Source: Nanobdellota archaeon
Lineage (GTDB): Archaea > Nanobdellota > Nanobdellia > Pacearchaeales > GW2011-AR1
Length of the DNA stretch: 32,240 nt
Direction of reading: 5' to 3'
Assembly: GCA_018816335.1 (NCBI GenBank)
Contig: JAHIVP010000022.1
Location: 1-32,240 of the forward strand
Of this stretch, positions 16,636 through 29,833 are shown one piece after another. The translations under genes and the position numbers were made by a program. The first letter of the stretch is position 1, and every line of letters begins with the position of its first letter. The notes beneath the pieces are model-generated. The model was not told the DNA's origin and made no database searches. It saw only the letters and a program-made list of their open reading frames with translations.

Positions 16636-17019
16636 CTAATATCTTGGCTTTTTCTTAGCATAACATTCCTTACAAAGAACTGGCTTACCTTTTGTTGGCT
16701 TAAACGGAACCTCACAATCTTTCTTACATTCATCGCAAACTACTTTATGCATTTCTCTAGGTCTATCTCTATTAAATCCACGATCATTGTTTCTACTAAA
16801 TCCACGACTATTATTTCTATTAAAGCCTCCATCTCTTGGTGGTCTATTCTCTGCAAAACATTCCTTACAAAGAACTGGCTTTCCTTCTGTAGGTTTAAAC
16901 GGAACTTCACAATCTTTCTTACATTTATCACAAACTACTTTATGCATTTCTCTTGGTCCAGAATCTCGATTAAATCCTCCACTTCTTGGTCTGTTGTTTC
17001 TATTTTCAAATCTTCCCAT
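16636..17019 (-). CDS. Duplicated CxxC-CxxC zinc-binding protein with RG/N-rich linkers
   Basis: Two near-identical copies of REMHKVVCDxCKKDCEVPFKPTxGKPVLCKEC. Confidence 0.85.
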   Translation of the reverse strand: MGRFENRNNRPRSGGFNRDSGPREMHKVVCDKCKKDCEVPFKPTEGKPVLCKECFAENRPPRDGGFNRNNSRGFSRNNDRGFNRDRPREMHKVVCDECKKDCEVPFKPTKGKPVLCKECYAKKKPRY

Positions 17020-17073: not shown

Positions 17074-17144
17074 TGGGCCTGGAAGGAATCGAACCTTCGC
17101 CATCTCGGTGTAAACGAGAGAGTCTACCATTAGCTTACAGGCCC
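17074..17144 (-). tRNA. tRNA-Val(UAC)
   Basis: Minus strand GGGCCTG TA AGCTAATGGTAGACT C TCTCG TTTACAC CGAGA TGGC GAAGG TTCGATT CCTTC CAGGCCC A: 7-bp acceptor, 5-bp anticodon and 5-bp T stems; D stem weak; CCA not encoded. Confidence 0.92.
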
Positions 17145-17214
17145 TCTTTGTTCGCCGACAGTGAGCAAGCCCGCAGCCTTGGCGAGGAGCTGCGCAACAA
17201 GAGCGAATCAAAGA
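17145..17214 (+). repeat. GC-rich structured element, copy 1, abutting the tRNA-Val 5' end
   Basis: TCTTTGTTCGC...GCGAATCAAAGA imperfect inverted-repeat ends; aligns along its full length with the element in the tRNA-Gly intron. Confidence 0.75.
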
Positions 17215-17313
17215 TTCCCCTCTGCACTTGTTCTACTAACAAAACTTCATCTTAAAAACCTTACTATACCCTTATTAAAGAAGAAAAGAAAAAACCAATT
17301 CTAACACTCTCAT

Positions 17314-18057
17314 TTAATTACCCACTAACCCCAAAGCAACCCCAATCACCACCACCCCCAAAACCACCGCTATCAACTGAACAATCTTCTTCCACAAACT
17401 AGGTTCTTTATGTAACTCAGGAAATAAATCAGAAGTAGCAATATAAATAAAACTACCTGCAGCAATAGCAATAACATAAGGAATATAATTCTCTAACCTA
17501 CTCAAAAATAAATACCCAACAATACCTCCTAAGATAGCTAAAGAAGCAGAGAGAAAATTAAACATCAAAGCCCTAAACTTTTTCATCCCACCATAAACTA
17601 AAACACCAAAATCTCCAATCTCTTGAGGAATCTCATGCAAAGCAATAGAAAAAGTTGTAGCAATTCCAGTTCCAACATCAACTAAAAAACTAGCAGCAAT
17701 AATAATTCCATCTAAAAAATTATGCACTCCATCTCCAATCAAATTCAAATAAACAACAGGATGCAAACAACCTTCACAATTATTATCTCCATGAGAATGA
17801 TGCCAATGAATAACAGCCTCTATTAAAAAGAAAATAATAATCCCAACTAAAACCCAAGTCAAAGTTCCAAGAACTTCATAACTCTCGGGAATCAAATCAA
17901 AAAACGCAGTTCCAAGCAAAGAACCTGCAGCAAAAGCAACTAAAATATACAACCACTTTTTCAAATTCTTACCCAAAGCCAAACTTACAACTCCTAGCAA
18001 AGAAATCAAGCTCACACTAATCACAGCCAGAATTATATATATCACCTCATGAACCAT
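17314..18057 (-). CDS. ZIP-family metal transporter
   Basis: LIGDGVHNFLDGIIIAASF and SIALHEIPQEIGDFGVLV are ZIP TM4/TM5 motifs; His-rich loop HWHHSHGD. Confidence 0.93.
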   Translation of the reverse strand: MVHEVIYIILAVISVSLISLLGVVSLALGKNLKKWLYILVAFAAGSLLGTAFFDLIPESYEVLGTLTWVLVGIIIFFLIEAVIHWHHSHGDNNCEGCLHPVVYLNLIGDGVHNFLDGIIIAASFLVDVGTGIATTFSIALHEIPQEIGDFGVLVYGGMKKFRALMFNFLSASLAILGGIVGYLFLSRLENYIPYVIAIAAGSFIYIATSDLFPELHKEPSLWKKIVQLIAVVLGVVVIGVALGLVGN

Positions 18058-18071
18058 AATTATATTTAGAA

Positions 18072-18725
18072 TTAGTTATTTTTATAATTAACTAAAAATC
18101 TCCTAAAATCATTTATTATTTTATTTGAACCCTCTTTTTCAACTATCTTCCAAGAAGCAAAATAACTCTTATGTTCCCTTGATCTCATTTTATCATAACC
18201 AATTTCTTTTTCTGATAAAATAAGTTTATAGACATTCTCAAGTATAGAATATATTAGAATATGCGTAGCAGTAATTCTATCACTTTGATATTTTAATTGG
18301 AGTTTATCAAAGTACTTCTCGATTATTTTATTTTTAGGAAGAATTTGATGAACAAGTTCATGAATTATTATTAATTTTAAAAATCTAATATCTTGAGATA
18401 TTAATTTTCCTTTAATTTTCTTTCTTAAAAATATTGTAAGTGGATCAGAAAAACCTCCAACCCAACTTTTTCTATGAGGCTCAGCCAAAAAATAGATAAT
18501 AATCTCCTTCTTATCCCATTGAAATCCAGAAACAGAAGCAATCACCTTTAAGATTTTTAAGCCCTGTTGATTCCACCAGCCTTTCAATACATTTATTTTT
18601 GATTCAACAAATTTTTCCCTATTAATAAATAAAGTATCATTAAGATGTTTATATCTTCCAGTAGAAAAATGAAACAACATAGCATCATAAATAGTAGAAT
18701 AATTTAAGATTATTTTTGGAACCAT
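18072..18725 (-). CDS. Hypothetical protein with HExxH motif (possible metalloprotease-like)
   Basis: RFLKLIIIHELVHQILPKN. Confidence 0.6.
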   Translation of the reverse strand: MVPKIILNYSTIYDAMLFHFSTGRYKHLNDTLFINREKFVESKINVLKGWWNQQGLKILKVIASVSGFQWDKKEIIIYFLAEPHRKSWVGGFSDPLTIFLRKKIKGKLISQDIRFLKLIIIHELVHQILPKNKIIEKYFDKLQLKYQSDRITATHILIYSILENVYKLILSEKEIGYDKMRSREHKSYFASWKIVEKEGSNKIINDFRRFLVNYKNN

Positions 18726-18805
18726 AATTATATTTATGATTAATCTTTTTTATATTTATCTTTTAACATCAAAATACTTAAAAACATAAGAAATTTAAAA
18801 AATTT

Positions 18806-19192
18806 ATGGGAATTATAGATCCAACAAGAACAAACACAATACCCTTAGTAACACCTCTTCCTATAAATTATATAACTCATCCACAAGACAGATTACCAGC
18901 AATAGGTATTTTTTATCAGTTTCCTAGTAGATGGACTGTTTTATGTCAAGAATTTAAATTAGACTTTGATAGATTAAAGCAAGGTAGAAAAGTAATACTT
19001 TCAGGGGAGACTTTAGACTTTAGAAATAAAAAGAGATTATTAGATTATTTAGATAGACATGATTATCAAGCAGTTCAAACTAAAGTTCCAGATGGAATAA
19101 GTTTTTCAGACACTGCAGAAGTTGTATCAAGCACCCATTTCAACGATTTCTTTTCAAGATACTCTTGGGTTGACAAATTAATATCAAATTAA
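18806..19192 (+). CDS. Hypothetical protein
   Basis: 128-aa ORF with TATA-like sequence upstream. Confidence 0.55.
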   Translation: MGIIDPTRTNTIPLVTPLPINYITHPQDRLPAIGIFYQFPSRWTVLCQEFKLDFDRLKQGRKVILSGETLDFRNKKRLLDYLDRHDYQAVQTKVPDGISFSDTAEVVSSTHFNDFFSRYSWVDKLISN

Positions 19193-19195
19193 AAA

Positions 19196-19374
19196 TGCGC
19201 CGGCCGGAGGTCGAATCCGGGTCACAACGTTTTTGCATTTTTTGAAGGGCCGCCAAAGCCACCCCTCTTTGACTCACTCTTATTGCGGGCATCCTCGGCT
19301 TTCGCCTGCGGTGCTCCTCATTGTCGGTGAGCAAAGATGGCAACGTCGTATACTAACCACTATACTACCAGCGC
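19196..19374 (-). tRNA. tRNA-Gly(GCC) with 107-nt intron at position 37/38
   Basis: Exon 1 19374-19338 GCGCTGGTAGTATAGTGGTTAGTATACGACGTTGCCA; exon 2 19230-19196 ACGTTGTGACCCGGATTCGACCTCCGGCCGGCGCA. Bulge-helix-bulge: TTGC/GCAA 4-bp helix with 3-nt bulges CA^T and AA^A. Confidence 0.9.
19266..19337 (-). repeat. GC-rich structured element, copy 2, within the tRNA-Gly intron
   Basis: TCTTTGCTCAC...GTGAGTCAAAGA; begins exactly at the predicted first intron nucleotide. Confidence 0.75.
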
Positions 19375-19452
19375 ATATAATTAGTCATTAATTTTCATAT
19401 TTAAATTTTTATGTTATGATATATTTATTAACCTTATTCATAATTTAATTTT

Positions 19453-29452: not shown

Positions 29453-29833
29453 AACTTAATCTATAACTTTTATTAACCCTCAATCTATCATTAACCAAAT
29501 AAAAATCAACCCACACACCACCTATCTTAAAATTCTCTCCAATCATTAACTTTTATTAAACCTCAACCTATCTTAAAATTCTAACTTAATCTATAACTTT
29601 TATTAAACCTCAACCTATCTTAAAATTCTAACTTAATCTATAACTTTTATTAACCCTCAACCTATCTTAAAATTCTAACTTAATCTATAACTTTTATTAA
29701 ACCTCAACCTATCTTAAAATTCTAACTTAATCTATAACTTTTATTAACCCTCAATCTATCATTAACCAAATAAAAATCAACCCACACACCACCTATCTTA
29801 AAATTCTCTCCAATCATTAACTTTTATTAAACC
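29453..29833. repeat. Nested direct repeats: ~47-bp tandem units inside a 110-bp perfect direct repeat
   Basis: 29453-29562 identical to 29724-29833; units start at 29583, 29630, 29677 (AACTTAATCTATAACTTTTATTAAMCCTCAACCTATCTTAAAATTCT). Confidence 0.95.

Follow-up and report, generated by a model that had tools for sequence, protein, structure and literature searches.

Archaeal tRNA genes can carry introns of the bulge-helix-bulge (BHB) type, for which transposition has been proposed, and RNase P, RNase Z and splicing endonuclease are established enzymes of tRNA maturation. Coding palindromic repeats reportedly occur in an archaeon said to be Methanocaldococcus jannaschii, in work by Suyama and colleagues from 2005. 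In the accessible portions of two papers (PMC10969869, PMC2229807), the Rickettsia palindromic elements (RPEs; Ogata et al. 2000, 2002) are described as palindromic, multicopy and non-autonomous repeats that lie within conserved protein genes and are translated in phase there, and no mobilising enzyme is named there; the second paper also places them inside RNA genes, namely those for tmRNA and M1 RNA, and cites archaeal coding palindromes (Suyama et al. 2005). The repeat described here is, as we consider likely, a family of non-autonomous palindromic mobile elements in Pacearchaeota-type DPANN archaea, inserted by an unidentified enzyme acting in trans. The family is apparently undescribed so far: we found no description of such an element in the open-licence literature, while an earlier description elsewhere is not excluded.

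A hairpin shared by two tRNA loci

The stretch of DNA that was analysed (the window) is an entire contig (C34) of 32,240 nt from a draft genome of 900 kb in 45 contigs that is 82% complete. The original prediction placed two copies of the element at 17145-17214 (+) and 19337-19266 (-), and both the coordinates and the alignment of the copies from end to end were confirmed. The features of the locus are as follows, with scores for R2, a covariance model built from five copies:

17074..17144, - strand: tRNA-Val(TAC)
17145..17214, + strand: palindromic element copy 1, 70 nt, its 5' end abutting tRNA-Val base 1 in antisense; 94.5 bits
19196..19230, - strand: tRNA-Gly(GCC) 3' exon
19231..19337, - strand: tRNA-Gly(GCC) intron, 107 nt, between positions 37 and 38
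19266..19337, - strand: palindromic element copy 2, 72 nt, its first base being base 1 of the tRNA-Gly intron; 90.9 bits
19338..19374, - strand: tRNA-Gly(GCC) 5' exon, up to and including A37

Copy 1 had been described as lying next to tRNA-Val, and there is in fact zero gap between the two. Copy 2 was correctly assigned to a tRNA-Gly intron: a tRNA model fits 19374-19196 (-) with a long insert after the anticodon, and removal of the intron between A37 and A38 in silico restores the cloverleaf of a normal tRNA-Gly, splicing itself not being shown. The UUGC/GCAA central helix and its flanking bulges, the latter read by eye, fit the BHB type. Nothing is unusual about the neighbouring genes, which encode a treble-clef zinc finger protein, a ZIP transporter and TruD. 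As separate observations, the zinc finger gene contains an internal duplication (window 16645-16763 and 16840-16958), and an AT-rich 47-bp tandem repeat occupies window positions 29494-29775, with dispersed relatives up to 32240 near the contig end. Membership of a known RNA family was rejected in the absence of any Rfam match to the element: across the whole window only tRNA reached the gathering score, and a relaxed search of 19190-19390 returned, besides tRNA, chance-level matches only.

The two GC-rich window copies share one common structure of 22 pairs. In full-length copies the outer stem has 11 bp and a single bulged base. An internal loop and a stem of 2 bp separate it from the inner stem, which is pseudo-symmetric: both a GA/GCA internal loop and a bulged A appear in it twice, on opposite strands. 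A small apical hairpin closes the structure. Terminal inverted repeats are present, and no autonomous element was found in these incomplete draft genomes. The covariation originally noted for the inner stem is right and extends to every helix: both sides change at 12 of the 22 pairs among five copies of this genome and at 18 of 22 among 27 copies, a value that none of 500 shuffles reached. The 27 copies were aligned with MAFFT without a model, and this alignment is the one quoted because model-fitted alignments lean towards their model. In it, 96.6% of cells pair, and the covariation score is 0.64 as compared to 0.21 in shuffles (0/500) and at most 0.13 with slid partners. Since copy 1 alone folds no better than shuffled sequences (z -1.4; copy 2, z -4.7), the structural evidence is this covariation. 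The internal loops are conserved across copies. The covariation is conclusive evidence that the hairpin is maintained, be it as RNA or as single-stranded DNA. Chance similarity of the two window copies can be excluded because their 20-base motif is expected only 0.02 times in the window and the model built from these two copies alone (R1) finds three further copies in this genome with E-values of 1e-10 to 1e-14; the covariation relative to shuffles likewise led us to reject it.

The covariance-model search of this and related genomes that the original prediction had proposed yielded further copies in both. R1 detected five copies in this genome; across 55 relatives, with strict filters, it detected no copy. 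R2 detected seven copies in this genome and was positive in 15 of 378 genomes of the class. R3, built from 31 copies, was positive in 18 of 181 genomes of the family and in 14 of 371 genomes of a phylum sample. The collection analysed here comprises 93 copies from 17 genomes of the family; all genomes are draft assemblies, and copies of one genus are not fully independent. The maximum copy number is 24, in the 62%-complete genome G419. Elements are about 68 nt long, with further forms of 62-63 and 45 nt and rare ones of 33 or 78 nt, the whole range being 33-79 nt. These size classes are linked to genomes (all five copies of G418 and many of those in G339 measure 45 nt, half of those in G158 62 nt, and those in G240 68-69 nt), and copy similarity is 0.69 within as compared to 0.64 between genomes (0/500 shuffles).

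A loose 19-base pattern matched 83 stretches in genome contigs. All seven matches from Pacearchaeota or Nanoarchaeota score at least 68 bits with R2, and the named records with strong matches all belong to Candidatus Pacearchaeota or Nanoarchaeota. The nine bacterial and six viral stretches tested score at most 18 bits, and on these scores wide bacterial occurrence was rejected, the remaining bacterial matches being unscored. Another family contains diverged GC-rich relatives of the element (G135, G167, G177), four of which appear by eye to occupy the 37/38 splice site of tRNA-Gln-like genes (L137, L148, L149, L150).

Placement at tRNA boundaries and in protein genes

The original prediction had suggested checking whether model matches are linked to tRNAs; the linkage is real and, being exact to the single base, tighter than claimed. 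For about 41 of the 93 copies the position coincides exactly with a tRNA processing boundary, which is the mature 3' end in 29 cases, the 5' end in eight and a splice site in four; the junction end of the element is its 5' end. At tRNA 3' ends, 26 copies start on the same strand within -3 to +1 of the end called by Rfam, where boundaries can err by a few bases; ARAGORN adds two copies at exactly 0 (L157, L170) and one as an intron-containing tRNA prediction (L208). The eight copies at tRNA 5' ends abut the tRNA on the opposite strand at a distance of 0. For 34 exact boundaries among 93 copies the probability is near 4e-46, even when no copy is allowed to lie farther than 300 nt from a tRNA, under a crude null that treats copies as independent. 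Targeting could explain this excess, and so could the loss by selection of nearby insertions harmful to the tRNA; both may also have acted together. Most tRNAs of this genome are without the element. Four copies from four genera open the intron of tRNA-Gly(GCC) at its 37/38 splice site, and at least two of them (G158, G418) belong to the size class typical of the genome they are in, which speaks for several arrivals at this site and against a single inherited insertion.

Many further copies come after a displaced copy of the neighbouring tRNA's 3' end. Such displaced ends, some of them in tandem, are what one would expect if the element were the att-adjacent part of larger integrative elements targeting tRNA 3' ends, the visible copies being scars of repeated integration. 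We regard this as highly improbable, as it leaves unexplained the insertions at 5' ends, in introns, at start codons and in coding sequence, as well as the absence of any cargo.

Several other arrangements were observed around tRNA genes. At L007 (1574-2168) an intact tRNA-Pro has its 3' end repeated downstream in three displaced copies, the last of which ends in the element, and at L235 (644-871, G339) a group I intron match lies near a displaced tRNA end that carries the element. A second repeat family of this genome, GAACC..GGTTCGACGAG, a few nt, then TTCNCGAGTGG (L015, L023, L034, L035), resembles a tRNA T-arm followed by a hairpin and lies about 20-60 nt downstream of tRNAs. A third repeat of about 75 nt, GAGGAGTGAATTGCGAAGCAAGAGAACCTAGGTTCTGGATGCTGGAATAACTAGAACCCGCAGGAGGTTCTAGGTTC, is also found downstream of tRNAs (L018, L022, L026 and, with two copies, L028) and recurs in another genome (L154). 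Partial copies of a tRNA's own 5' half or anticodon arm directly precede the gene at L014, L018, L021, L024, L027, L031 and L037, in some cases with a hairpin between copy and gene.

Eight copies lie within protein genes, all of them in sense orientation and in phase; they share one reading frame, the first base of the element being the third of a codon:

MetRS: G319 and G419
uS11: G158 and G339 (45-nt form in G339)
uS3: G000
eL31: G419/ARS50
S4-domain protein: G419
DNA polymerase B: G479

A ninth case, at the C-terminus of uS3 (L229), uses a different frame. Empty sites are available for two of these genes. The MetRS of G319 has 20 extra residues exactly at the junction where six relatives run from PWE or its equivalent straight into the next helix, and the uS11 insert is absent in G027 and G240. 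Two copies of this genome (L008, L155) end at the A of an ATG start codon, their 5' ends again being placed to the single base.

The data show that the hairpin was gained repeatedly at sites where the gene product survives. Single-base placement at three kinds of tRNA processing boundary, together with deep structural conservation, would also suit a functional RNA of tRNA biogenesis. As part of a leader, trailer or intron, such a hairpin would guide RNase P, RNase Z or splicing endonuclease into position or shield the ends of pre-tRNA. Such a role is unlikely, given that the element is patchy (163 of the 181 genomes of the family lack it, as do most tRNAs of this genome), that its 5' copies are antisense to the tRNA and that others lie in protein genes and at start codons. 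The original prediction offered two readings. The first, a palindromic element that is mobile, is favoured because the repeat is multicopy and patchy, has genome-linked subtypes, shows occupied as well as empty sites and inserts in phase into protein genes. The second was a conserved RNA linked to tRNA genes, and an RNA acting in trans is not supported because copies also lie antisense before tRNAs and inside coding sequence.

Possible routes of insertion

Directly before the element, a consensus of (G/C)(A/C) holds about 1.5 bits over two positions, too weak for the precision seen at tRNA ends, and a simple sequence target was rejected. Nine copies have direct repeats of 12-37 nt, the null reaching no more than 10: the sequence directly abutting the element returns 11-85 nt past its 3' end. 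That target-site duplication generally accompanies insertion was rejected, most copies being without a direct repeat and lengths being variable; with this variability the element also lacks the constant-length target-site duplication that would mark a transposase-mobilised MITE. A casposon or Cas1 integrase product, with its fixed 14-15 bp duplication at tRNA 3' ends, was likewise rejected: Cas1 was found in one of 12 family carriers and not in the other 11, in incomplete genomes, and the repeats are of 12-37 nt or absent.

Two mechanisms within the mobile-element reading were considered. A retroposed, SINE-like route, in which RNA of the element becomes linked to the end of a mature RNA and, once copied into DNA, enters the tRNA locus by recombination, would account for the flush placement at RNA processing boundaries, for direct repeats of variable length and for the 5'-truncated relics seen by eye downstream of some full copies. 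It is nonetheless rather doubtful, since the reverse orientation at tRNA 5' ends requires an antisense substrate, tRNA 3' junctions lack CCA, start-codon and coding insertions lie away from RNA ends, and reverse transcriptase (RVT_1) was not found in five of ten family carriers, whose genomes are incomplete. An RNA-primed route is left open because of the variable direct repeats and the truncated relics. IS200/IS605-type single-strand transposition (REP/PATE-like), joining the left end 3' of a short target without target duplication, would agree with the hairpin form and the orientation-specific junction after a short motif. We give it little credence, as several copies have direct repeats and Y1_Tnp was not found in seven of ten carriers, again incomplete genomes (G000, G221, G280, G311, G319, G339, G406); it was found in the other three, one a fragment. 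None of Y1_Tnp, RVT_1 and Cas1 tracks the element, and all three were rejected as its mobiliser, with carrier completeness of 62-92% limiting these enzyme searches. Tyrosine recombinases, which are expected in nearly all archaea, lie outside this set of candidates.

We infer that an as yet unidentified enzyme, whose gene lies outside the element, would recognise the hairpin and place it behind a short end of the form (G/C)A or CC. Such insertions would persist where their cost is small. At tRNA ends and in introns, maturation by RNase P, RNase Z or splicing endonuclease would leave the mature tRNA free of the element. In a protein, a linker or tail would grow by about 20 residues, encoded by the element's stop-free, hydrophilic frame. 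The exact tRNA boundaries may arise from target preference, from selection of survivors or from both. More tentatively, insertion might be directed to RNA-processing boundaries themselves (RNase P, RNase Z and tRNA splice sites), with mobility coupled to tRNA maturation, possibly via an RNA intermediate; we consider this possible but not probable. If it were true, each insertion would be removed from the mature tRNA.

Some evidence stands against a mobile element. A cellular role as RNA would be another possible reason for the strong conservation of the internal loops, no autonomous partner was found in these incomplete genomes, and the repeats are variable or missing, unlike those of a classical transposase. 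No excision or transposition event was seen, the closest comparisons being between species.

Relation to known elements

Like the archaeal BHB introns, copy 2 sits at position 37/38, lies in an intron whose ends fit the BHB form (bulges by eye) and whose removal in silico restores the tRNA; unlike them, the element is not confined to introns, having copies at tRNA ends and in protein genes as well. With REP/REPIN sequences and IS200/IS605-derived PATEs, the subject of PMC3733652, PMC3116915 and PMC3119063, it shares the character of small, hairpin-forming, non-autonomous repeats. It differs in that Y1 transposase was not found in most of the incomplete carrier genomes, and in that it lies inside RNA and protein genes and not mainly between genes. 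With the repeats of Suyama et al. 2005 it has in common, as a likeness of kind only, an archaeal host and open frames fused to protein genes.

The nearest kind appears to be the RPEs, in an analogy that claims likeness and not membership, no sequence link being claimed. Like them, the element is palindromic, multicopy (93 copies, 17 genomes), non-autonomous and, at 33-79 nt, below 200 bp without a gene of its own, and it lies in frame in conserved protein genes that stay intact, with the MetRS and uS11 of relatives as empty sites; occurrence inside RNA genes is a further shared trait. Unlike the element, which is archaeal and shorter, RPEs are bacterial and 105-150 bp long in the portions of the literature available, and those portions (PMC10969869, PMC2229807) do not describe single-base placement at tRNA ends or splice sites. 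The occupation of one tRNA-Gly(GCC) splice site by different subtypes offers a model for the gain or enlargement of archaeal tRNA introns, and the in-phase copies in MetRS, ribosomal proteins and DNA polymerase indicate that selfish DNA is tolerated in the core machinery of a small genome. The range of protein-coding palindromic elements, of which those of Rickettsia are the most familiar, would be extended to a DPANN clade with small genomes, with exact positioning at each of the three kinds of tRNA processing site as a property added to those that the consulted parts of the RPE literature describe.
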